DNA from: Bdellovibrio sp.
Lineage (GTDB): Bacteria; Bdellovibrionota; Bdellovibrionia; Bdellovibrionales; UBA1609
Direction of reading: 5' to 3'
Assembly: GCA_003694355.1 (NCBI GenBank)
Contig: RFKI01000002.1
Coordinates: 1-13,202, forward strand
Length of the DNA: 13,202 nucleotides
In this document: in pieces, positions 1,792 to 12,912 of the stretch
Layout: each line of letters opens with the position of its first letter
Position numbering within the stretch: position 1 is the first letter of the stretch
Notes under the pieces: generated by a model
What the model was told of the DNA's origin: nothing
Database searches by the model: none
Seen by the model: only the letters and a program-made list of their open reading frames with translations
Program-made: the position numbers and the translations under genes

Positions 1792-2538
1792 ATGAGAAAA
1801 ATAAAAAACATTTTTTTAACTCTCGTAACTTTATCTTTCACAGCTTGTGGTGGTGGGGGAGGAGGTTCTGTGAGTACAGGTGGCAGATATATGACGCATG
1901 CTGAAGTGGCTCAGGACTTTGTTTATCGTTTGAATGTAGATGCTGGTTTTGATGTGGAATTGGTTAAAACCAATACGGCTTATTCGGATTATATAGTGGT
2001 GTATGACTGGGACTTGGGAACATATGATGCCTATTATATTGGCGATTATGTTCCTGGAGAGAATGTGATTTCTTATTTAAATCTTTATGATTCCTCTTTT
2101 TATTATGATTTAGATCCTATTGGTGGGGGTTATTATCAGGATTATTATACTGGAGTTGTTTTTGAAAAAGTGCAAAATGGAAGTTCTAAAAATTTGATGC
2201 AAATGGCAGCGATTAAAGAAATGGTTCAGATTGATAAGGCAGCTAAAACTTTGGAAGCAGAATATGGTTTGTCTAAAGATCGCAGTCGAGAAGTGGCTCA
2301 ACTGGCTGTTCAAATTGCCAATGCACCTAAAGGAAGTTTGACCGATGAAGATTATGATAATTTTGCAAAAGAGATTTTAGGAAGCTCTATTACAGAGTTT
2401 CAAGAAGCCATTAAAAAATCTATGGAGGGGGACAAATCAGATTTGGATAGTTTGTTAGAGGTGGCTGCAGATGTGAATGGTGTTTCTCCCGAAGCTGTTG
2501 ACCAAATTGTTTCTGACATATTTGGCGGAAAGAATTAA
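1792..2538 (+). CDS. Tyrosine-rich lipoprotein of unknown function
   Basis: The 248-residue product starts with a type II signal peptide: basic MRKIK, a hydrophobic stretch, and a lipobox-like LSFTAC with the lipid-bearing cysteine at C19. A run of six glycines follows directly, a flexible tether often seen after lipobox cysteines. Residues 60-125 are strikingly rich in Tyr and Asp (YYIGDY, FYYDLDP, GGGYYQDYY), suggesting a small beta domain. Residues 130-248 look fully alpha-helical and acidic, with repeated short amphipathic helices. I do not recognise a family. An AGGGGGAAG ribosome site precedes the ATG. The gene stands alone between a sigma-54-type promoter and a strong terminator, so it is probably monocistronic and conditionally expressed. 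There is no Asp at +2 after the cysteine, so outer-membrane targeting is possible, though sorting rules vary among lineages. Confidence 0.85.
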   Translation: MRKIKNIFLTLVTLSFTACGGGGGGSVSTGGRYMTHAEVAQDFVYRLNVDAGFDVELVKTNTAYSDYIVVYDWDLGTYDAYYIGDYVPGENVISYLNLYDSSFYYDLDPIGGGYYQDYYTGVVFEKVQNGSSKNLMQMAAIKEMVQIDKAAKTLEAEYGLSKDRSREVAQLAVQIANAPKGSLTDEDYDNFAKEILGSSITEFQEAIKKSMEGDKSDLDSLLEVAADVNGVSPEAVDQIVSDIFGGKN

Positions 2539-2570: not shown

Positions 2571-2601
2571 AGAGGGTGCTGTTTCAGCACCCTCTTCTTT
2601 T
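2571..2601 (+). terminator. Strong intrinsic terminator after the lipoprotein gene
   Basis: AGAGGGTGCTG (2571-2581) and CAGCACCCTCT (2585-2595) form a perfect 11-bp stem around a TTT loop. A pyrimidine- and T-rich tail (TCTTTT, 2596-2601) follows. It lies 33 bases beyond the lipoprotein stop and separates that gene from motA. Confidence 0.9.
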
Positions 2602-2624: not shown

Positions 2625-2651
2625 TAATTCTCATTTTATTATGGCCGAAAA
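2625..2651 (+). promoter_or_regulatory. Sigma-28 (FliA)-like promoter of motAB
   Basis: GCCGAAAA at 2644-2651 matches 7 of 8 bases of the flagellar sigma-28 -10 element GCCGATAA. At the canonical distance (11 bases between the 8-mers) lies TAATTCTC (2625-2632), a weaker match to TAAAGTTT that keeps the TAA core. Transcription would start near 2658, about 25 bases before the motA ATG. Dependence of motAB on sigma-28 is well established in several flagellated bacteria, so the position makes sense. This placement also argues against the in-frame ATG at 2641, which would lie inside the promoter. Confidence 0.5.
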
Positions 2652-2682
2652 GCTCTCTAGAAAAATTAGGCGAGGGGGCTTT

Positions 2683-3486
2683 ATGAACATAGCAGCTCTA
2701 TTGGGCGTGATTACAGGTATTTCAATCACAGCTTATACGATTTTGACCTCGGCAGATAGTCCGCGTATTTTTGCGGACCCTCATGGGATTATTATTGTTT
2801 GGGGTGGAACATTTACTGTGGCGTTATTGTGTTTTCCTTTAAAACGACTTTATAACGCTTTTAAAATTGTTTTGAGAAAAGTTTTTGGAAAGAAGACAGA
2901 CTTTTTGAAAGTTATAAAAACCATTGTGGCAACAGCGAATGAGTACAGAGTGGATCCTAAAGCAGCTTTAGAAAAAATGCCTAAAGATGCTCATCCCTTC
3001 TTTGTGGATGGGATGAAGTATTTGGTGGAGTATGGTTTTCGTTCTGAGGAAATTGATGAAGTCTTAACCAATGCCCTCAATGGTAAGAAAAAGAGAGATG
3101 ACCAAGAAGTGAAGGTTTGGCATACCATTTCTCGATTCCCTCCTGCTTTTGGATTATTAGGAGCCACTGTGGGAATGATTGCTCTGTTACAGACATTAGG
3201 AGAGCCTGGTGCTCAAGAAAGAATTGGACCAGCTATGGCAACAGCTTTGGTGGCGACATTTTATGGTCTCATTACAGCTAACCTTGTTTTTATTCCTATT
3301 AGCGAACACTTGGCAGAAGTAGCTAATGAGGATTTGGTTTTGCGAAAAATTATTAAAGAAGGAATTTTATTAATTCAAGAAAAACGTCACCCTCTTTATA
3401 TCGAAGAGTATCTCAAGTCTTTCTTGCCTCCAGCCCAAAGGGAGCTGGAACTTCTTGAGGAGAGTAAGAAGTCTCATGCAGCTTGA
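2683..3486 (+). CDS. motA: Flagellar stator protein MotA
   Basis: This 267-residue MotA/ExbB-type protein is one half of the ion-conducting flagellar stator in the inner membrane. Four membrane segments are visible: about residues 1-21, 35-53, 154-172 and 183-207. A large cytoplasmic loop (54-150) lies between the second and third. The functional prolines correspond to P154 at the head of the third segment (RFPPAFG) and P205 in the fourth (FIPIS), matching E. coli MotA P173 and P222. The C-terminal SFLPPAQREL is typical of MotA. I start the gene at 2683 because GAGGGGG lies 4 nt upstream and MNIAALLG begins directly with a membrane helix. An upstream in-frame ATG at 2641 would add a basic 14-residue leader and overlap the promoter. 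It overlaps motB by 11 bases and follows a terminator, so motAB is an independent unit. Confidence 0.93.
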   Translation: MNIAALLGVITGISITAYTILTSADSPRIFADPHGIIIVWGGTFTVALLCFPLKRLYNAFKIVLRKVFGKKTDFLKVIKTIVATANEYRVDPKAALEKMPKDAHPFFVDGMKYLVEYGFRSEEIDEVLTNALNGKKKRDDQEVKVWHTISRFPPAFGLLGATVGMIALLQTLGEPGAQERIGPAMATALVATFYGLITANLVFIPISEHLAEVANEDLVLRKIIKEGILLIQEKRHPLYIEEYLKSFLPPAQRELELLEESKKSHAA

Positions 3487-4564
3487 AAAAAGAAAACGGA
3501 AAAAACAAGATGCTTTTGATAAGCGAGTGGATTTACATCATGATGAATCGAACTGGCTTGTAAGTTATGCAGATATGATGACTCTTCTTATGGGATTTTT
3601 TGTTTTAATGTATGCTTTTTCTCGAGTCGATAGAAATAAGTTTGCGGTTGTTAGAAAAGAAATAGCCACTTATTTTGGCGGACAAGTGAAAGCTTTGCCA
3701 GCAGTGGAGGCGGCCTCAAAGGAGATTAAAAACTTTGTTAAAAAAATGGAACTGGAAAAAGAAGTGCAAATTTCTACGACAGAAACAGGGATTATCTTAA
3801 GGTTTAATGGAGAATTGTTATTTAATTCAGGATCCGCTGAATTGGTTCCAGAGATGCGACCTGTTTTAACCCGGATTATTACAATGATCAAGGCGCAGAA
3901 GAATGTGGAAGAAGTAAGAGTGGAAGGCCATACGGATGACATTCCTATTTTTTCTCCTGTTTTTCCAACAAACTGGGAACTTTCGGCGGCTCGAGCAGCT
4001 CGTGTGGTTCGTCAATTTGAAGCGGCTGGCTTTCCAGAGACAAAATTGGTGGCAGAAGGATATGGGGCCTCTCGTCCAGAAGTACCAAATCGTACTCCAA
4101 ATGGTGATCCCATAAAGGAGAATTTGGCAAAAAACCGGAGGGTTATCATTAATGTGAGTTTTGGGCATGATGTGAATGAGGCCTCCATGGCTTTGGACTC
4201 CACACAGTTTGTACGTCCCCGAGAGGGTCAAGAAGAGGTCATACAATCTCCTCAAGAAGAAAAAGAGGCTCATTTGTCAGAAGAAGAGCAGCTAAAAATG
4301 CGTTTGGAGGCAGCCAAACGGCGTTTGCAGGTGGCTCAACAAAAAATGAGAGAGGCTCAAAAAATTGAACGAGAAAAAGCAAAGAAACAAGCCTTGTTAA
4401 AAAAAGTATTGGAATTAGAAAAGCGAGCTCAAGAAGTTGAAACAAAAGCATATCAGGTTTTGGGTGACTCTCAAAAGAGAATGCCTTCTCAAAATCCCTC
4501 TAAAACCCTGAACTTAAAAGAAGGTTTGAGGGAATTGCAAAAGCGACAAAAGCAGCAAAAATAA
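3476..4564 (+). CDS. motB: Flagellar stator protein MotB with coiled-coil tail
   Basis: The 362-residue protein has a basic cytoplasmic N-terminus and one membrane helix (about 27-48). That helix contains SYADMMTLLMGFFVLMYAF, where D33 is the essential ion-binding aspartate. A plug-like segment follows, then an OmpA-type peptidoglycan-binding domain (about 100-229) with VEGHTDD, NWELSAARA and NRRVIINV. The YAD context resembles proton-type MotB more than sodium-type PomB; this is an inference. Residues 230-362 form an unusually long, highly charged tail rich in Glu, Lys, Gln and Ala, with a predicted coiled coil around 258-330. E. coli MotB is 308 residues long with a much shorter tail. The ATG at 3476 overlaps the end of motA, with AGGAG 13 nt upstream. 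A TTG at 3455 could add seven residues but would sit before the ribosome site. Confidence 0.92.
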   Translation: MQLEKRKRKKQDAFDKRVDLHHDESNWLVSYADMMTLLMGFFVLMYAFSRVDRNKFAVVRKEIATYFGGQVKALPAVEAASKEIKNFVKKMELEKEVQISTTETGIILRFNGELLFNSGSAELVPEMRPVLTRIITMIKAQKNVEEVRVEGHTDDIPIFSPVFPTNWELSAARAARVVRQFEAAGFPETKLVAEGYGASRPEVPNRTPNGDPIKENLAKNRRVIINVSFGHDVNEASMALDSTQFVRPREGQEEVIQSPQEEKEAHLSEEEQLKMRLEAAKRRLQVAQQKMREAQKIEREKAKKQALLKKVLELEKRAQEVETKAYQVLGDSQKRMPSQNPSKTLNLKEGLRELQKRQKQQK

Positions 4565-4727
4565 TAAAGCGATTGATCTTATATAAGCCCTTAAAATTTC
4601 TAGTTGTTTCCATAGTTATAGAGAGGATTCTTTTAATTTCTTTGCTGTAAAAAGTTCAATTTTTTATTTAAAAATGTACATTAAACCCGTTTTCCCTTAG
4701 CTCTGAAAAAGGCTCTAGGGGGGCATT
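4565..4727. other. AT-rich spacer between motB and the giant-protein operon
   Basis: This 163-base spacer carries no supported gene. It has a 10-base palindrome, CTTATATAAG (4578-4587), but no convincing stem-loop terminator after motB and no promoter better than a weak TTGCTG/TATTTA pair (4642-4670). Read-through from motAB into the downstream operon therefore cannot be excluded. Confidence 0.5.
4694..4721 (+). promoter_or_regulatory. Stem-loop masking the ribosome site of a TTG start
   Basis: CCCTTAG (4694-4700) can pair with CTAGGGG (4715-4721) through seven base pairs including one G-U, around a 14-base loop. The right arm contains most of the AGGGGGG Shine-Dalgarno (4717-4723) that serves the TTG start at 4728. 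Pairing would hide the ribosome site, so translation of the downstream pair could be conditionally limited. The stem is short and this is a prediction only. Confidence 0.3.
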
Positions 4728-7700
4728 TTGAAGTTATTTCTTCTTTTATTATTGTTTCCTCTCGCCTTGTGGGGACAGGGTTTTTCAGACTTGCCAGGGC
4801 TGATTCCGAAGGGGTTTGTCAGGGCCCCAGCCACTGACCTGGTATATGAGGGGAAAAGGCTTTCCCCTCAAGAAGCTTATGAGCTTTATAAAAAAGGACA
4901 GGACCTTTCACGGATAGACCCAGATTCCACAACAGATCTTTGGAACTCAAAACCAGTAACAATGTCAAAAACAGATGAAGAGCTGCTTGGCATTCAGCAA
5001 GAAGGTGAAACTTTTGAGTTTTTAGAGCCTGTGGCTTCAAAAATCGGTTTCTTTTTATTTAAGGTCACAAAAAAAAATAAAAAAGGGCTTCAGGAAATTT
5101 ATACCATTTGGGTGGGAAAAACAGTTCATAATTTGTTATTGAGAAAAGCTTTATTAAGGAAATTGGGGTATCAAATTCAACCGATAGGGTATTTGAAAAA
5201 GTATCGTGTTTATTTTAAAGGTCCGGTTTCCAAAAAAAATTTTTTAAAAAGCCCTTTGGCCTTTCGTCCCAGCTTGGTGGATTATACAAGAGGTGCTCCT
5301 TCGCGCTGGGTTTTAAATTTAGAAGATAAGACTTCCTCTTATTGGGATTTGCAAGATGCTCTTATTGTAAGAGGCGAGCCTCTAACCTATTCCATTGCTT
5401 TAGGTCCTATGAATCGCCAAATTATTAAAGGGCGTCGATTGTTAAATGCTTTATTTATAGTTTATCAACTTTTATATATCCCAGAGAGTGTTAATTTATA
5501 TCAGTGGAACCCTGGACGCCTTGTAAATGGCAGTGTGTATTTACCTTTTGAAGGCGCTGAAGAATTTTATACCTCTTATGAAGATGCACGGTGGATTTTG
5601 CGAAGAATTTTAAGTTTGAGTCGCAAGGATTTTAAAGATGTTGTGAAACAAGGTTTTTTCCCTTCAGAAGTTGAGGCTTTGGTTCTTGAAAAGTTAATAT
5701 CTCGGAGAAATCATCTAAAAGACTTTTTTGACCTATCGGTAGAATTTAAAGACCTCCCATTTGACCCTAAAGTTTCTATGGGAGAGCGCTTAAAGGAAGG
5801 CAAACTAAAAGGTCAGGAATGGCCAGGATATGGAGCTCGATTTGTTTATGGGGATCCAGCCTCTCCACTTTCTAAAGAAGAGATTGTTGCTTTTTTAAAG
5901 TCAAAGATGATAAGTGCAGCACTGGCGAATCTTGTTGTTAAAGTGAACTCTGATTTATTGCCACATACGGATGTTCAAAAACTTTTAATAGAAAAGCAAA
6001 AACAATTGGCTATTGAGAGGTTTAAAGAGTTTTTAAAAACAGGAGAAGTTAAAAAAGTGCCTTTTGGAATGTGGGCAGAACCAGCAGGAGCATTGAATTT
6101 GATAGCGTCCAGAGAAGTGATCGCTGGAAGTTATTTGGGAACAGATAATTTGATTCAATTGGCGGATGCCATAGGGATATCGGCAGATGTTGGGGCTTTT
6201 TTGGCATCTCAGGGCTTGCCTCAAGGTGTGTTTTTGGGAGGAGAAGCGAAAGTTTTTTATAATATTATTTATAACCATTTGAAACCATTAAAAAGTATTA
6301 AAAGATCCTTAAAGGAGCCATTTCAGAATTTAATAATTCCTTTTTTAAAAAAACAAGCAGCAACAACTCTGGATAATCTTTTAAGTTCTGATTTTGAAAA
6401 ACTAAAAGACAAGGAAAAGCAACAAAAAATTGATAAAGTTCTTAAGCAGTTTAATGAGCTTTTAGGAGTGGGGGAGTCGTTTATTGTGACTCATTCCCTT
6501 GGGGCGAAATTTCAGCTGAGGGGAGGAAAGAGTCTTGCTGAAAGAATAAAGGCTCAAGCCCTTTTTGGTAGTCGTCAAACATTGATTTCACGTTTGCATA
6601 TTTTTCGAAAAGATAAAAACACCATTCAGGTTTATAAGGATTTTGCAGGAACTCATCGACTCTCTTTGGCCTTTGAGTGGAAAGCGGGAATTCAGGTTTT
6701 AAAGATCGGAGGTCAAAGGCTTGGGGGCTCTTCTTCTTTGCAATTTCACGAGTTGGATATTACGCCAAAACTTCAAAATAATCCTGATTTAATTAGGAAT
6801 TTATCAGCTATAGCGGGTATCCTTAAGGGCCAATCTTTAGAGTATTTGAGAGAAGTGGCTCCACCTTTTAAGATAGACTATAGACTTCTGGAAAAGCAGT
6901 CAGAGTTGAAAATTCTTTCTTATCAAAATCTGGGCCTTTTTTCAAGAATATGGTTTCAGGTTCAATCTCCTGGCGGTGATCAAAAAAATTTTTTCAGGTA
7001 TCAGGTGGGCACTCGTCGAGGCTCTGATTATCAAAGTGTTGTTGTTGATGGGTTAGATGAAATTTTAAGGGAAACACTAGACACTAAAAATATAGTTATT
7101 CCCAATACAACAAGTGGAAACCCTGGAGATACAATTGGTGGGCGTTCAGTGGGGCGGCGTGCTTCTTTTGAAGCTGAGGTGCCTTTGAATAAAGAATCTG
7201 GTGAGGCAAAAGATATTTTTTTTAATATTCAATATTTTTGGAAGGGCTGGAGTATTTCAAAAGATCAAATCATGAATTTGATTCGAGATTTAAGAAAACA
7301 ATATCAGTTTCAATTTTTTGCGAAAGAAGAGCTTAATGATACAAAAGAAATACAGTTATATGTGCTGACTTTGGACATCTATCTTTACAAAGAGGCTTTA
7401 GACAATCTAGTTCATTTATCTGCTGGAGATTTTAAATCGTTCTTGCAAGAATATTCTCGTTTGCCTCATCGTATTTACCGCTTGCCTGGACCAAGAAAGC
7501 CAGGAAGGTATGAGTCTTCTCAAGAACGAGCCTTAAGAAGATTTAGAACATTTCGAAACAATTGTTTTAAAGGGCTTCAAGAAGCGGTGTACAGAAAGGC
7601 CGGACCTTTCTGTTTAAAGCTGATGTCTCTTGTGGAGCAGTCTTTGGAGTTTAAGGGGTTTTTAAAGGTTATTGGTGGCAAAAGAAATCTTTATGTCAAA

Positions 7701-7877
7701 GCTCGTTTAAATGGTTTTCGTAAAGGAGATGAATCTGGAGATGAGCCCTTATTCTCTTCTCAACTGGGAGAGATTGGAAGTCCTAAATGGGAGGGGCCTT
7801 TAAAATATATACAAAACAAGCTCCATCTTTTAGAGGGAGAGTTTAATATATACTGGATTTTAAGGCGGTTGCGATGA
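4728..7877 (+). CDS. Giant secreted protein of unknown family, coupled to a subtilase
   Basis: I do not recognise this 1049-residue protein. It begins with a classic signal peptide (lysine, then LFLLLLLFPLALW, likely cleaved around residues 16-18). The start is TTG: AGGGGGG lies 4 nt upstream, and the next in-frame Met is at about residue 79, far beyond the signal sequence. No later membrane segment is evident, so a periplasmic, surface or exported location is likely. Several regions can be seen. Residues 19-440 are mixed alpha/beta and rich in aromatics. Residues 446-510 are Gly/Ala-rich and uncharged. Residues 515-585 form a Lys-rich helical stretch. Residues 586-830 are beta-rich and end in a Gly/Thr/Ser-rich segment at about 795-821. 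The last 100 residues are basic. Only two cysteines are seen (C946 and C962), which suggests one disulfide. Its TGA overlaps the ATG of the subtilase gene (ATGA), pointing to coupled synthesis. A protease substrate, scaffold or partner role is speculation. Confidence 0.85.
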   Translation: MKLFLLLLLFPLALWGQGFSDLPGLIPKGFVRAPATDLVYEGKRLSPQEAYELYKKGQDLSRIDPDSTTDLWNSKPVTMSKTDEELLGIQQEGETFEFLEPVASKIGFFLFKVTKKNKKGLQEIYTIWVGKTVHNLLLRKALLRKLGYQIQPIGYLKKYRVYFKGPVSKKNFLKSPLAFRPSLVDYTRGAPSRWVLNLEDKTSSYWDLQDALIVRGEPLTYSIALGPMNRQIIKGRRLLNALFIVYQLLYIPESVNLYQWNPGRLVNGSVYLPFEGAEEFYTSYEDARWILRRILSLSRKDFKDVVKQGFFPSEVEALVLEKLISRRNHLKDFFDLSVEFKDLPFDPKVSMGERLKEGKLKGQEWPGYGARFVYGDPASPLSKEEIVAFLKSKMISAALANLVVKVNSDLLPHTDVQKLLIEKQKQLAIERFKEFLKTGEVKKVPFGMWAEPAGALNLIASREVIAGSYLGTDNLIQLADAIGISADVGAFLASQGLPQGVFLGGEAKVFYNIIYNHLKPLKSIKRSLKEPFQNLIIPFLKKQAATTLDNLLSSDFEKLKDKEKQQKIDKVLKQFNELLGVGESFIVTHSLGAKFQLRGGKSLAERIKAQALFGSRQTLISRLHIFRKDKNTIQVYKDFAGTHRLSLAFEWKAGIQVLKIGGQRLGGSSSLQFHELDITPKLQNNPDLIRNLSAIAGILKGQSLEYLREVAPPFKIDYRLLEKQSELKILSYQNLGLFSRIWFQVQSPGGDQKNFFRYQVGTRRGSDYQSVVVDGLDEILRETLDTKNIVIPNTTSGNPGDTIGGRSVGRRASFEAEVPLNKESGEAKDIFFNIQYFWKGWSISKDQIMNLIRDLRKQYQFQFFAKEELNDTKEIQLYVLTLDIYLYKEALDNLVHLSAGDFKSFLQEYSRLPHRIYRLPGPRKPGRYESSQERALRRFRTFRNNCFKGLQEAVYRKAGPFCLKLMSLVEQSLEFKGFLKVIGGKRNLYVKARLNGFRKGDESGDEPLFSSQLGEIGSPKWEGPLKYIQNKLHLLEGEFNIYWILRRLR

Positions 7878-10800
7878 AAAAATATTGGGGGATTTTATTT
7901 GTTTGCCTTTTTTCTTTGTCCAAAGCTCAAGGGTTAGAGCTTTGGAGTTTTAAAGAAGTTGTCGTTGAATTTAAAAAAAAGTTAAGCTCTCATGAGCTCC
8001 AGAGAATTTCCAGAAAGTACCAAGTTCACCTCGTTCCCTTTTCTTCCATTAAATCTTCATATTTTAATCGTGTGTATCAGGCGAAGCTATCTCCAGAACA
8101 AGAGTTTCTTTTAAAACAAGATCCTTTAGTGCAAAATTTGGAGCCTGTATTTGGCTTGGAAACATTTTCTATAATTCCAGACTTTGAAAGGAGTCCCAGA
8201 ACAAATGACACTCTTTGGGGGTACCAGTGGGGAATGTCCAATCGTGGGCAAATTTTAGTTCGCCCTATAGATGATTTGCATTCCGAGCGCATTCAAGGGA
8301 AAAGGGGCTATGATATCGGATGGGTCAATCTTGAAAGAGACTTGAAAAAAGATATCATTGTAGCGGTTTTAGATAGTGGCGTGGATTTTAATCATCCTGA
8401 TTTGAAAAACAATATTTATAAAAATAAACCAGAATGTGAAAAGGATGGCTCTCTTCCCCTGCGGCCTCAAGAAGATAAAGATCATAATGGCTATAAAGGG
8501 GATTGCATGGGGTGGAATTTTACAGCCCGAGATAAGAGGTTAGCTCATCGACCAATGGATGATTCTGGGCATGGAACTCATGTGGCTGGTATTATTGCTG
8601 CTGAGTTGAATAATCATCTAGGAGTTGCGGGATTTTCAAATCGTATAAAAATTCTTCCTGTTAAGGTAACCATGCGGGAAAAGGCTGAAAAGCAGATGGC
8701 TTCGGTTCCAAAAGGCAAGAAGGGTAAAAAGAAAGTTTTGGCTCTTTCTGATCGTGTGGCTAAGGGCATTTTATATGCTGTTAAAATGGGGGCCCAAGTG
8801 ATCAATTTAAGTTTGGGGTGGCCCATGCGCATGGATACAAAGTATTTGAGAGAGGCCTTTAAGTTTGCTTTAGATCGTGGAGTGAGTATCGTGGCTGCTG
8901 CAGGCAATAATGATAATAATTCTCCTCTTTTTCCCTGTGCTTATCGGGGTGTTATTTGCGTGGCTTCCGTAGATAACGCAGGTTATTTTTCAGACTTTTC
9001 TAACTTTGGAGGTCATGTTGACTTTGTGGCTCCTGGTGAAGATATTTTAAGCCTTTATTTAAGTCATGAGTATGCTCTTAATTTTGATAGTCTGGGCTAT
9101 GCTTATAAAAGTGGAACCAGTCAGGCAGCTCCTTATGTAACTGCTATGGTTGCCCTCTTGAAAGCTATGGGTAAAGGGCAAAACTTTGAAGAAATATGGG
9201 CCCGTTTGTTCTTGTCTTCAAAGAAAGTGATGACTCACACTTTTAAGTGGGTTCAGGGAGGACTGGTTCAACTCAATAGAGCTCTTCAATGGAGTCCTCA
9301 ACCTGTGGTGGCTCCTGTTTTTAAGGAAATGGACCGGATTTTGTATCAGCGTTCAAAGAAAACAATAAGACTTTCTTTGCCTATAAAGAGCTACTGGAGG
9401 CAGGCCAAAAAGGTTGTTGTTCATGTTAAAAGTTTAAATCCCAATATCATTTTTTTGAAAAAAGAGTTTTTCATTCCAGTTTTATCTGGGCAAAAGTTCT
9501 TGTCTCTTCGGGCTCAAGTAAAAGACGACAAAAAACACAGTCATTTAAAGTTTTCGGTCACCATATCTTATAAAAATACTAAACCAAAAACTTTTTTGCA
9601 CGAAGTGGTAGTGTCTCGTGCTCTTGAAGGAGATTCTGATGTTGAGGAAATTGATTTGCCACAGGGGGTTTGGGAACAGATAAGGACAGTGCCTGTTTAT
9701 AAAAAAAGTAATTTAGATGTTCCTGAATATTATACGTTGAGCAAACCAAAGTTGGATTTAAACGTAAATATCTATCGTTTAACTCAGGGGAAAACTCGTT
9801 ATAAGAAAGTTTTCACCGTTTCTTTACCGCAGGCCATCCGGTTGATTTCTATTCTTAAAATAGACTTAGATGATGACGGAGTTGATGACTATTTTATGAG
9901 GACGCTTTCGAAAGACACACAGTCTTATATTGGGTTTCATTTTTATTTTCCAAATTTGAAAAAGAAATTGACCTTTAAACTGAATTATCAAGGTAAAGTG
10001 GCGCCTTCTTTTCGCGAAAAAAGAAACTTTTTAAATGGATCCAAAGACTTCTTTTTCATTCCATGGAGTTTGCCAAGAGGGCAGAAAATTAAGTTACCTC
10101 TTTATTTAGGGCGAGGACAGTTACCTCAAAGAGATCTTAGTTCAAGCCCCTTAGACGTGAATCAAGATGTTTTAAAAAAGAGACTTTATTTTTATGAACC
10201 AGAAGGACATTTGATACATTTAAGAGCTTTTGCTGGCCCTCAATTTGAAGAGTTTGTAAGAAATACTTTAAAAAAACGTTTTTTTGAAAAGGTGCAGTTT
10301 CATGCTCTTTTTAAAAAAGACCAGAAAATTCATTTGCTTTTTTCTGTGGGGAGAGGGTTTGTCAAAGATTTTTATGATGTGCCGGTTACAACAGATTTGC
10401 TTTATGATGGGGCAAAGCCTTTTCAAAAAAGTTCGTTTTCTTATATGGATATCGACGGCTTTTCTTATTTTTTATCCACAGATTTAACTTCATTATCTCC
10501 ACAGTTTCATGTTCGTCCTGTTCTTGTGGGACTTCTTTCTAGTACGCGAGGGCAAGTTGTAGGGATAGAGAACCTATTTGCTTATGATGTTGTTCAAAAA
10601 GATAAAAAAGATGGGCTTTTAAATTATTTGCATGGTTTTTGGTTGCCAGAAGGATTTTATGCTTTTTTTCTGACCAAAAGTCATTTGTTTTTAAATGTTT
10701 TTACCAAGAAGGGGCTTGTTAAAATCATAAAGAGATCCATTATCCGATCCAGTTTTTTGCCAGGGCATCTTTTTTCTGAAACTCTTTATCCGATTGTTTT

Positions 10801-11041
10801 TGGAGCGGTAAAGAAGGGGCCCCGACCCGCCTTTTACGTGAATGCTTCTCAGCTTTCTTCACGCCATGTTTACTTGTGGGTTGTTCAGAATAGTCAGTTA
10901 ATTTCACCTATGTACTTAGACGTTTCTTTTTCTGAAAACTGTCGTCCTTTAAATCCTCATTTTTGGAAAGAGAGTTTTGCTTATATATTTTCTTGTAAAA
11001 CAACTAAGAAAGAGTACTTAAAAATATTGCCCCTTCAATAA
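7874..11041 (+). CDS. Secreted subtilisin-family (S8) serine protease with a large C-terminal region
   Basis: This 1055-residue protein has a signal peptide (1-18), an inhibitor-I9-like propeptide (about 24-96) and a complete S8 catalytic domain (about 115-475). The catalytic triad is D167 (LDSGVD), H233 (SGHGTHVAGI) and S416 (SGTSQAAPYV), and N345 (AAAGNN) is the oxyanion residue. A DKDHNGYKGDCMGWNF segment (201-216) resembles the calcium-binding loop of related subtilases. Between the ILPVKV strand and the next helix lies an expanded loop with a lysine cluster (280-287). Residues 476-1055 match nothing I recognise and look beta-rich. They contain DLDDDGVDD (664-672), a DxDxDGxxD calcium-type motif like those in FG-GAP or thrombospondin-3 repeats, and a weaker DIDG (859-862). 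The six mature cysteines fall in three close pairs (188/211, 355/362, 1023/1041), consistent with disulfides in an exported protein. The ATG overlaps the preceding stop, with AAGG 8 nt upstream. It is likely an active autoprocessing protease. Confidence 0.93.
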   Translation: MKKYWGILFVCLFSLSKAQGLELWSFKEVVVEFKKKLSSHELQRISRKYQVHLVPFSSIKSSYFNRVYQAKLSPEQEFLLKQDPLVQNLEPVFGLETFSIIPDFERSPRTNDTLWGYQWGMSNRGQILVRPIDDLHSERIQGKRGYDIGWVNLERDLKKDIIVAVLDSGVDFNHPDLKNNIYKNKPECEKDGSLPLRPQEDKDHNGYKGDCMGWNFTARDKRLAHRPMDDSGHGTHVAGIIAAELNNHLGVAGFSNRIKILPVKVTMREKAEKQMASVPKGKKGKKKVLALSDRVAKGILYAVKMGAQVINLSLGWPMRMDTKYLREAFKFALDRGVSIVAAAGNNDNNSPLFPCAYRGVICVASVDNAGYFSDFSNFGGHVDFVAPGEDILSLYLSHEYALNFDSLGYAYKSGTSQAAPYVTAMVALLKAMGKGQNFEEIWARLFLSSKKVMTHTFKWVQGGLVQLNRALQWSPQPVVAPVFKEMDRILYQRSKKTIRLSLPIKSYWRQAKKVVVHVKSLNPNIIFLKKEFFIPVLSGQKFLSLRAQVKDDKKHSHLKFSVTISYKNTKPKTFLHEVVVSRALEGDSDVEEIDLPQGVWEQIRTVPVYKKSNLDVPEYYTLSKPKLDLNVNIYRLTQGKTRYKKVFTVSLPQAIRLISILKIDLDDDGVDDYFMRTLSKDTQSYIGFHFYFPNLKKKLTFKLNYQGKVAPSFREKRNFLNGSKDFFFIPWSLPRGQKIKLPLYLGRGQLPQRDLSSSPLDVNQDVLKKRLYFYEPEGHLIHLRAFAGPQFEEFVRNTLKKRFFEKVQFHALFKKDQKIHLLFSVGRGFVKDFYDVPVTTDLLYDGAKPFQKSSFSYMDIDGFSYFLSTDLTSLSPQFHVRPVLVGLLSSTRGQVVGIENLFAYDVVQKDKKDGLLNYLHGFWLPEGFYAFFLTKSHLFLNVFTKKGLVKIIKRSIIRSSFLPGHLFSETLYPIVFGAVKKGPRPAFYVNASQLSSRHVYLWVVQNSQLISPMYLDVSFSENCRPLNPHFWKESFAYIFSCKTTKKEYLKILPLQ

Positions 11042-11086: not shown

Positions 11087-11917
11087 ATGCCAAATATCGT
11101 TATTAATGGGGTAAGGACGTATTATGAAAAGAAGGGAAAAGGTCCTCCTATTGTTTTGATCCATGGTTTGGGAAGTTCTCACTTGGAGTGGGAACAAGTG
11201 CGTTCTTATTTGGTTTCTAAATACACTGTTTATACATATGATGTTAGAGGTCATGGCCAAAGTGAAAAAACAAAGGGGCCTTTTACAATGGAGCTGTTTG
11301 CTGCTGATGCAAAGGCTTTTATTGAAAAGATGGGTCTTAAAAAGGTCACTATAGGTGGGTGTTCCATGGGAGGCATGATAGCCTTTCAATTTGCAGTGGA
11401 TTATCCACAGTTATTGGAAAACCTTATTATCGTTAACTCAGTTCCTGAGGTGAAACTAAAAACCCTTAGGGAAAAAGCTATTTTATATACAAGACTTCTT
11501 TTGTTAAATACTTTAGGGCTACATAATATGGCTCGAGTCTTGGTTTATAAGGTGTTTCCTCGTCCTGACCAGGCAGAGATACGTCGAAGAGAGCTGGAGA
11601 GGTTTTTATTAAATGATGAAGAAACTTATAGGGCTTGTATAAAGGCCATTGTCGGGTGGGGGGTTAAAGAACGTCTTAAGGAGATTAAAGTCCCTGTATT
11701 AGTTGTTTCTGCTGAAAATGATTATTTGCCACTTTCATATAAAAAAGAGTATGTCAAACAGATACCAAATGCCCAATTAGTGGTTATTAAAAAATCCCGG
11801 CATGTGACTCCCATTGACCAGCCAGAGCAATTAGCTAAGGCCATATTAAAGTTTTTAGATACTCTCAACAAAGAGCAAAAAAATCCGGAGGCATCTTTTA
11901 AAGACGCCTCCAGATGA
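11087..11917 (+). CDS. Alpha/beta-fold hydrolase
   Basis: This 276-residue alpha/beta hydrolase has the usual length and motifs. The oxyanion-hole HGLG lies at 26-29 (LIHGLGSS), the nucleophile elbow GCSMGG places the nucleophile at S93, the acid is D212 (SAENDYLP) and the histidine is H239 (KSRHVTP). YDVRGHGQS (51-59) is the strongly conserved segment after the third strand. It belongs to the broad esterase, lactonase and 3-oxoadipate-enol-lactonase-like group. The substrate cannot be assigned from sequence alone. There is no signal peptide, so it acts in the cytoplasm, unlike the two exported proteins encoded upstream. AAGGGGTG lies 8 nt before the ATG. It follows the protease stop by 45 bases and may be cotranscribed, or may use the promoter overlapping the protease 3' end. 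Its last codons lie inside a bidirectional terminator, so the C-terminal residues after about 262 are probably a non-conserved tail. Confidence 0.92.
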   Translation: MPNIVINGVRTYYEKKGKGPPIVLIHGLGSSHLEWEQVRSYLVSKYTVYTYDVRGHGQSEKTKGPFTMELFAADAKAFIEKMGLKKVTIGGCSMGGMIAFQFAVDYPQLLENLIIVNSVPEVKLKTLREKAILYTRLLLLNTLGLHNMARVLVYKVFPRPDQAEIRRRELERFLLNDEETYRACIKAIVGWGVKERLKEIKVPVLVVSAENDYLPLSYKKEYVKQIPNAQLVVIKKSRHVTPIDQPEQLAKAILKFLDTLNKEQKNPEASFKDASR

Positions 11918-11937: not shown

Positions 11938-12912
11938 TTAGTCAAATTGAAGTCTTAGTTCTACACCTGCGTCAAAACCATCCTTATCTTTGTTCTTGTC
12001 GTTTTTGGTGTATCCCACATAAGGCTTAATGGAGAGATTTTTCTTGATTTGGTGATTGTAAGAAACTTCTCCTCTTTTTTTGTCTTTGGTTTTTGTGCCA
12101 TCAACAGCAAAATTTTTGTATTTTGCTCCTCCTTGGACAGCAGTTGTGCTTCCATCGTTGCCTTTATCGTTAAAGATCACAAGAGCATAAGCACTCATAT
12201 TTTCATCATATTTAAATTGAGCGCCAATAGACCATTGCTCTTCTCTTTCCTGACTTCCTTTGTTTCCTTCTTGGTTTAGGTAGGAAGCCTGCAAGGAGAG
12301 CATGTCTCCAATTTTATGAGCAATAGCAATGCCTACAGTAGGGTCTCCGCTACTTATATTCATATCAAACTGGCCTTCGGGAGATTCGGTTAGTATAAAG
12401 CGAACCTCATCAATGTATTCTGTTTTTCCTAAAAGAACGGCTCCAACCACTTGTTGGATTCTTTTCGCATCATAGAGTAAGTCTTGAGAGGCTGAGCCCC
12501 CGAAAGCGTCCATGGCAGCTAAAATATTTTGTTTACCCACAGTAACAGACCAGTTGTCATTGAGTTGAGCTTCCAAGGTTAATTCATCTACCAGTTTTTC
12601 GACGTCAATAACAGCATTAACGTCTTCCCCTGAGTTGGCGAACTCTCTTCCCAGAGCATCAGCAATATCTAAAACCAGCTTGGCTTTAGTTTTTTCAGAT
12701 AATTGGGCGCCAATATTAAATAAGATATGTTGAGATTTTACAGAGATATCTCCGTCCTCATTGGAGTTTACATCTAACTGCAAATTAGCAGAGGTATTGA
12801 TTTTGCTTTTTTCTTTTGCTGAGAGAGCTGTTGTGCTTAAACTCAATCCTAGCAAAAGAGAGGGGGCTACCTTTAAAAGGTTAAAACTTGTTTTTTTATT
12901 ATTTTTTTTCAT
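11938..12912 (-). CDS. Outer-membrane beta-barrel (porin-like) protein
   Basis: The 324-residue product has a long basic signal peptide (MKKNNKK, then LLLGLSLSTTALSA, cleaved near residue 32). After it comes a chain of short amphipathic beta-strands with alternating hydrophobic residues, separated by Asp, Asn, Lys and Gly-rich turns. This is the pattern of an outer-membrane barrel. No mature cysteine is present. The last strand reads VELRLQFD: the typical terminal aromatic is the penultimate residue, followed by an extra Asp, a mild deviation from the usual BAM signal. I cannot assign a porin family or substrate. An internal segment (about residues 121-145, VTVGKQNILAAMDAFGG) resembles the strand-plus-inward-loop arrangement of general porins; this is an inference. 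A perfect AAGGAGG lies 5 nt before the ATG. It is convergent with the hydrolase and preceded by a strong sigma-54-type promoter with a leader of about 60 bases. Confidence 0.85.
   Translation of the reverse strand: MKKNNKKTSFNLLKVAPSLLLGLSLSTTALSAKEKSKINTSANLQLDVNSNEDGDISVKSQHILFNIGAQLSEKTKAKLVLDIADALGREFANSGEDVNAVIDVEKLVDELTLEAQLNDNWSVTVGKQNILAAMDAFGGSASQDLLYDAKRIQQVVGAVLLGKTEYIDEVRFILTESPEGQFDMNISSGDPTVGIAIAHKIGDMLSLQASYLNQEGNKGSQEREEQWSIGAQFKYDENMSAYALVIFNDKGNDGSTTAVQGGAKYKNFAVDGTKTKDKKRGEVSYNHQIKKNLSIKPYVGYTKNDKNKDKDGFDAGVELRLQFD

Follow-up and report, generated by a model that had tools for sequence, protein, structure and literature searches.

Contig RFKI01000002.1 of a Bdellovibrio sp. 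assembly (GCA_003694355.1, 82.9% complete) is a stretch of 13.2 kb (13,202 nucleotides, all of it analyzed and hereafter called the window) that encodes, in order on the forward strand, a predicted lipoprotein, MotA, MotB, a giant exported protein whose family is unnamed (here BIG), an S8 (subtilisin-family) protease, and an alpha/beta hydrolase. The initial annotation had singled out the BIG and S8 genes as two frames of more than 1,000 codons that overlap by ATGA and whose products both begin with signal peptides, a description that holds: the open reading frames (ORFs) encode 1049 and 1055 residues, share ATGA at 7874-7877, and a Sec-type signal is predicted from sequence at both N-termini. 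The features of these two genes and of the lipoprotein gene are as follows.

1792..2538, + strand: predicted lipoprotein, 248 residues, with a lipobox Cys followed by GGGGGG, matching the profile of its family
4718..4723, + strand: candidate ribosome-binding site of BIG (GGGGGG), 4 nt upstream of the TTG
4728..7877, + strand: BIG, exported 1049-residue protein with a TTG start, identified as an ORF and placed in its unnamed family by profile searches
4800..6065, + strand: N-terminal mixed alpha/beta domain of BIG (residues 25-446) in the AlphaFold2 model
6066..7724, + strand: 14-stranded beta-barrel-like region of BIG (residues 447-999)
7874..7877, + strand: ATGA shared by the BIG stop and the S8 start
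7874..11041, + strand: S8 protease, 1055 residues, ATG start (Pfam PF00082, E 8e-43)
7952..8146, + strand: propeptide-like beta-alpha-beta-beta-alpha-beta unit of S8 (residues 27-91), from DSSP of the model
8201..9298, + strand: S8 catalytic domain (residues 110-475), with D167 at 8372-8374, H233 at 8570-8572, and S416 at 9119-9121
9311..11038, + strand: C-terminal beta-rich region of S8 (residues 480-1055), the part that marks the family, from DSSP of the model and a profile

The S8 start is itself preceded by a purine-rich AAGG at 7862-7865.

The pairing of BIG with an S8 protease is conserved well beyond the window. A first set of 80 BIG regions comprised 20 near relatives and 60 hand-picked loci, mostly one per genus, from the profile matches listed, a choice in which weak BIG relatives are under-sampled; three of these loci meet a contig end and were not judgeable. 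In 73 of the remaining 77, the first sizable gene downstream of BIG encodes S8 (72 by rule, plus L044, where 694 nt separate it from BIG, no other sizable frame intervenes, and it is intact as far as the contig extends); S8 lies directly upstream in one (L102, on the same contig as L151), and no S8 gene is nearby in three. A second, overlapping set of 62 loci from named genomes, nine of them not judgeable, gave a downstream S8 in 47 of 53 (46 by rule and L169, where S8 overlaps the end of a BIG gene split in two frames), an upstream S8 in three, and none in three. The spacing is equally constant, as the gap between the BIG and S8 frames is at most 30 nt in 67 of the 70 first-set pairs measured, with a 4-nt overlap in 23, so that the coupling is not attributable to chance. 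BIG homologues do not, therefore, always stand directly before an S8 gene, as the initial annotation had wondered, and BIG without any protease neighbor, whose common occurrence it had named as grounds for giving up the link, is limited to three of the 77 judged loci. One reversed pair (L181:2132-10107) has S8 followed by an adjoining BIG, both with lipobox-like starts; ricin-type lectin inserts are clear in this BIG (94.6 bits; cut-off, 25.6), and its S8 has a lectin-like insert under the Pfam cut-off (23.8 bits against 29, E 5.3e-05).

Distribution across the phylum follows the same pattern. S8 catalytic domains are widespread, with 10 matches in the genome of the window alone, and the protease was therefore tracked by a profile of its C-terminal region, which matched 202 of 368 genomes, while BIG matched 222 and the lipoprotein 197. 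BIG and the S8 region occur together in 200 genomes, BIG without the S8 region in 22, the S8 region without BIG in two, and neither in 144; BIG and the lipoprotein share 185 genomes, and all three components are found in 177. The 368 genomes are related, and Fisher values for co-occurrence are therefore not probabilities. Genome G031, which we take to be the epibiotic B. exovorus JSS, has no match to the BIG profile, though relatives in its genus carry BIG, and no link to lifestyle is claimed. The names and titles of BIG matches point to Bdellovibrionota (Bdellovibrionales, Bacteriovoracaceae, Oligoflexia). A profile scan of named genomes produced the 62 loci of the second set, under Bdellovibrionota-type titles or broad and odd labels (Proteobacteria, Deltaproteobacteria, Epsilonproteobacteria, Silvanigrella), and a scan of named genomes with the single BIG protein returned no match; the protein searches scored 8000 (or 7999) candidates each, with 120 listed, and do not imply absence outside the phylum. 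BIG, S8, and the lipoprotein form a real, conserved module typical of Bdellovibrionota.

The two proteins also share a history. Distances among BIG proteins are correlated with those among S8 proteins across 16 genomes of the order (r 0.80; partial r 0.81 given BamA, a value reached by 0 of 5000 label shuffles), whereas BIG distances show no such correlation with BamA distances (r -0.01). BamA behaved sensibly as a control, being closer within families than between them and making two species of one genus mutually nearest. The correlation with S8, together with the decoupling from BamA, indicates that the two genes have been passed down, and may have been exchanged, together. For genomes G004, G012, and G021 of family f1, the closest BIG and S8 are those of G036, a member of family f8, or those of another of the three. 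With BamA, G004 has a different closest genome, although G036 is again the closest to G021; lateral exchange of the pair among these genomes is possible. That BIG might be a dedicated partner of the protease, as the initial annotation proposed, is well supported by linkage, co-occurrence, and shared history alike; the roughly stoichiometric synthesis that it also proposed is an inference.

The protease is a complete S8 enzyme, as had been read from its triad: the Asp-His-Ser triad and subtilisin fold are present, and none of D167, H233, N345, and S416 varies across the 90 aligned sequences, that of the window included. The S8 model is confident, with a mean predicted local distance difference test (pLDDT) of 91.0 and a predicted template modelling score (pTM) of 0.88. 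Its unit at residues 27-91, considered as a possible I9-type propeptide, has no Pfam match. Fewer than 60 residues precede the catalytic domain in 23 of the 90, Bdellovibrio proteins included, too few for a signal and a propeptide (at least one of these may be a truncated record), while the N-terminal region is longer in the other 67, including the protein of the window. An Asp-rich DxDxDGxxDY stretch at about residues 662-674 of the C-terminal region is conserved in the family consensus and presumably resembles a calcium-binding loop.

BIG, by comparison, belongs to no recognizable family, as the initial annotation had found: the protein of the window has no match in Pfam (E<=1), NCBIfam (E<=1), or PADLOC (E<=0.01), and a 92-sequence BIG profile has none among PDB sequences (E<=10). 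The 18 BIG members scanned share no Pfam family: RAP appears in three (best E 0.009), and other families in one member each. One of the 18 frames has a strong Gp_dh_C match (E 3.8e-12), perhaps an open frame continuing from a neighboring gene. By a simple rule, 109 of the 120 listed BIG proteins (that of the window among them) have signals of the SPI (signal peptidase I) type, three have lipobox-like starts, and eight lack a clear signal; the start of the BIG of the window is not lipobox-like. The AlphaFold2 model is compact (mean pLDDT 92.9, pTM 0.89), the sole run of at least three residues with pLDDT below 50 being 916-918. In some relatives the N-terminal domain carries inserted ricin-type lectin domains. 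P0060 and 14 other relatives have an insert of about 130-180 residues after window residue 557, in the loop between strands 3 and 4, and the two scanned (P0060 and P0099) have no Pfam match there.

The initial annotation had envisaged a system of two genes, and the BIG-S8 pairing stands, but there is a third member. Of the 80 fetched BIG regions, 58 encode a member of the lipoprotein family, either preceding or following the BIG-S8 pair, and in 54 of these 58 its gene shares the strand of the pair. A loose lipobox pattern is present in 118 of 120 listed family members, of which 113 have at least four Gly within eight residues after the lipobox. No Pfam family recurs among 14 members, and the profile has weak matches in the PDB (best 7bqq, E 2.3e-05, over 42 residues). 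Several genomes have up to seven matches to the profile, and L169 has three tandem copies (L169:3229-5756) upstream of its split BIG gene. At L166, a BIG locus without S8, a small lipoprotein-like gene lies downstream. Two genomes of genus g36 have a rhomboid protease gene next to that of the lipoprotein (G170, 2330842-2331564; L042, a similar ORF at 1745-2467), the Pfam assignment having been made on the G170 copy only.

The same triplet in a predatory genome connects the module to the published record. Genome G170, which we take to be B. bacteriovorus HD100, holds lipoprotein, S8, and BIG genes at 2331635-2339095. Three anchors fix the numbering of these genes. The last of ten genes taken to be the gliding cluster (Bd2368-Bd2377) lies 50 ORFs ahead of the S8 gene; S8 genes of G170 fit the positions of Bd0376, Bd2269, Bd2321, and Bd2692, from which Bd2428 interpolates to about 2332 kb; and a rhomboid gene precedes the lipoprotein gene, Bd2426 being called rhomboid in print (PMC3818213). 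By position, the lipoprotein is thus Bd2427, the S8 protease Bd2428, and BIG Bd2429, so that Bd2428 is the positional counterpart of the S8 of the window within the same gene triplet. Bd2428 is among the genes hit by mini-Tn5 in a predation-mutant screen (Tudor, 2008, as reported in PMC2797640), is upregulated at 30 min of predation (PMC2797640), and is one of four S8 proteases named among the proteins left in killed, uninvaded prey (PMC11003981). The main text of a 2025 proteome paper makes no mention of it. In the texts searched Bd2428 is named singly, as an S8 protease of predation. The initial annotation regarded the locus as its best candidate for an undescribed system; this stands for BIG and the lipoprotein, whereas the protease half is already in the literature as Bd2428, by position.

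Taken together, these observations may be accounted for by a surface-protease complex of the predator, composed of the S8 protease, BIG as its obligate partner, and the lipoprotein as a tether, a reading to which we give about an even chance. All three products carry export signals, and S8 would be the catalytic part. BIG would be made just before S8, probably from the same message, and as an obligate large partner would bind S8 outside the cytoplasm, where it would position or stabilize the protease at the outer surface of the predator. The lipoprotein, through its acylated Cys and Gly tether, would fix the complex to the outer membrane, and during attack the protease would be handed to the prey envelope and cut prey proteins. 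We infer the contact among the three proteins, the roles of BIG as scaffold and of the lipoprotein as anchor, and the identity of the proteins cut. Such a complex would explain why the genes are linked and share a history, why neighbors at L181 have lipid and lectin features in common, and why the protease is present in prey shells; the newly recognized partners of the predation-linked protease probably belong to the same tool.

Several points weigh against this reading. BIG genes without an S8 neighbor exist at L050, L092, and L107 in the first set and at L166, L192, and L154 (on the same contig as L107) in the second. The 22 BIG genomes without a match to the S8 profile are joined by 37 without the lipoprotein, some of these assemblies being incomplete. 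The lipoprotein is absent from 22 of the 80 fetched regions, and in the window its gene is set apart from BIG by motA-motB. Linked genes would share a history whether or not their products touch, and adjacency with shared history would also follow from co-expression alone. The prey-shell study reports low peptide numbers and some proteins of broken predators (PMC11003981), and the presence of Bd2428 there is therefore not proof of secretion. Neither Bd2427 nor Bd2429 was found in the paper texts searched, supplements being outside that search, and the organism of the window need not itself be a predator.

The nearest described arrangement is dentilisin (PrcB-PrcA-PrtP) of Treponema denticola, a surface protease complex whose S8 protease gene is accompanied by genes for a small lipoprotein and for a larger exported partner, and whose accessory proteins are described as unique to oral spirochetes (PMC8167434). 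The likeness has limits. Against the NCBIfam PrtP model the S8 of the window scores 86.2 bits, with a cut-off of 300. PrcA is a 70-kDa lipoprotein, unlike BIG with its 1049 residues and rarely lipobox-like start, and the position of the lipoprotein gene varies around the BIG-S8 pair. A further difference is that no Pfam family is common to the members scanned of BIG or of the lipoprotein. Both its PrtP score and the kind of large partner it has place the module outside the dentilisin type.

Among the alternatives, the one that survives best sees BIG as an outer-membrane beta-barrel of a new family that exports or docks its cognate protease in a two-partner-like system, which on balance is doubtful. 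From a periplasmic position the N-terminal domain would capture S8, and the barrel would pass the protease out or keep it at the surface. The structural model invites such a reading, since it has a confidently predicted 14-stranded barrel like those of the outer membrane, with an even number of antiparallel strands and with four of the six turns on the side of the termini short and two long (39 and 33 residues). The nearest solved folds to residues 447-999 are the 14-stranded outer-membrane porins CymA and OmpG, from which BIG differs in having no sequence match to them, an rmsd (root-mean-square deviation) of 6-7, and large extra domains; a Foldseek search with BIG gave no match at E<=0.001. 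A strand-by-strand test looked favorable to a membrane barrel, its comparisons being only the S8 region and the BIG N-terminal domain.

Membrane-type alternation, expressed as a ratio to shuffled sequences with BamA of 30 genomes as control, changed this picture. On the octanol scale BamA reaches 2.06, while BIG 447-680 gives 1.04 and BIG 700-1000 gives 0.81; by the stricter measure the values are 3.04, 1.59, and 0.70; and only on the Kyte-Doolittle scale does the first half of the barrel (1.55; second half, 1.14) equal BamA (1.54). The family-average alternation of BIG (1.68) is similar to that of the S8 C-terminal region (1.78) and unlike that of BamA (2.36). Conservation of the two strand faces (2.23 vs 2.31 bits) does not separate a membrane from a soluble barrel. 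By this sequence test membrane insertion is not clearly supported, and the outer-membrane barrel, earlier the best explanation, was demoted after the BamA control. The lectin domains inserted in the N-terminal domain would also be odd in the periplasm.

In two-partner secretion (TpsB/TpsA, type Vb), TpsB is of the Omp85 type with POTRA domains, and the exported partner has a TPS domain at its N-terminus. The likeness lies in a gene for a barrel protein just upstream of one for a large exported protein. The 18 BIG members differ in having no Omp85 or POTRA match at E<=1 and no transporter Pfam family, S8 has no TPS domain (only Peptidase_S8 at E<=1), and the membrane insertion of BIG is itself in doubt. 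The fuller proposal, in which BIG would be the founding member of a new family of 14-stranded barrels in the outer membrane, each exporting and displaying a single cognate protease by a route unlike the numbered secretion types, and by which Bdellovibrio and its relatives place a protease onto prey, is marginally more doubtful still. An outer-membrane location of the barrel, if confirmed, would mean a new route of export or display.

It is unlikely that BIG instead helps the protease to fold and inhibits it for a time, in the manner of ORF2, the external chaperone of the Aeromonas sobria serine protease. There too an S8 protease has a dedicated adjacent gene, a chaperone would account for adjacency and co-occurrence here, and part of the S8 family of the window has no room for a propeptide; HD100 has such a short S8 and keeps BIG. 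The N-terminus is nevertheless longer in 67 of the 90 S8 proteins, including that of the window with its predicted propeptide-like unit, and BIG is still present; BIG also comprises several domains and is about seven times the size of the helper. The chaperone gene of Aeromonas sobria lies downstream of its protease (PMC5638518), whereas BIG lies upstream in 73 of 77 loci.

Co-expression of genes whose products act separately, BIG being an independent attack-phase adhesin or enzyme, is quite improbable. Orphan BIG genes exist, lectin insertions would suit a binding protein, and adjacency by itself is no proof of contact, but gene order and a near-zero gap are kept in most loci across the phylum, and 200 of the 202 genomes with the S8 C-terminal region also carry BIG. 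Very improbable is a role for BIG as a dedicated substrate matured or released by cleavage: PrcA, whose cleavage in the dentilisin complex depends on PrtP, is a precedent for a large partner-substrate, though a change in the PrtP active site did not stop PrcA cleavage (PMC8167434), and the BIG model is compact with its single short run of low pLDDT, cleavage sites not having been searched for.

How Bdellovibrio-type predators breach their prey is a long-standing question that involves many hypothetical proteins. A protease already implicated (Bd2428, by position) is now tied to two conserved partners in nearly half of the phylum genomes (177/368), and these links, with the confident predicted structure of BIG, make what was a stand-alone protease a three-part machine open to experiment. 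The protease was known in part, while the giant partner and the lipoprotein were not.

The remaining features of the window are as follows.

2571..2595, + strand: terminator-like hairpin 3' of the lipoprotein gene, with an 11-pair stem and T-rich tail (consensus match only)
2641-3486, + strand: motA, between the lipoprotein gene and BIG
3455-4564, + strand: motB, between the lipoprotein gene and BIG
11087-11917, + strand: alpha/beta hydrolase
11938-12912, - strand: porin-like protein; several outer-membrane families match it weakly, all below cut-off

Scans of the window for Rfam families and tRNA genes gave no matches. The called start of motB overlaps the end of motA. The motA-motB genes were considered as part of the module and rejected, as none of 20 near-relative loci has them between the lipoprotein gene and BIG; a MotB-type match (74 bits, L036) and a MotA-type match (14.6 bits, L041) lie elsewhere in those regions.

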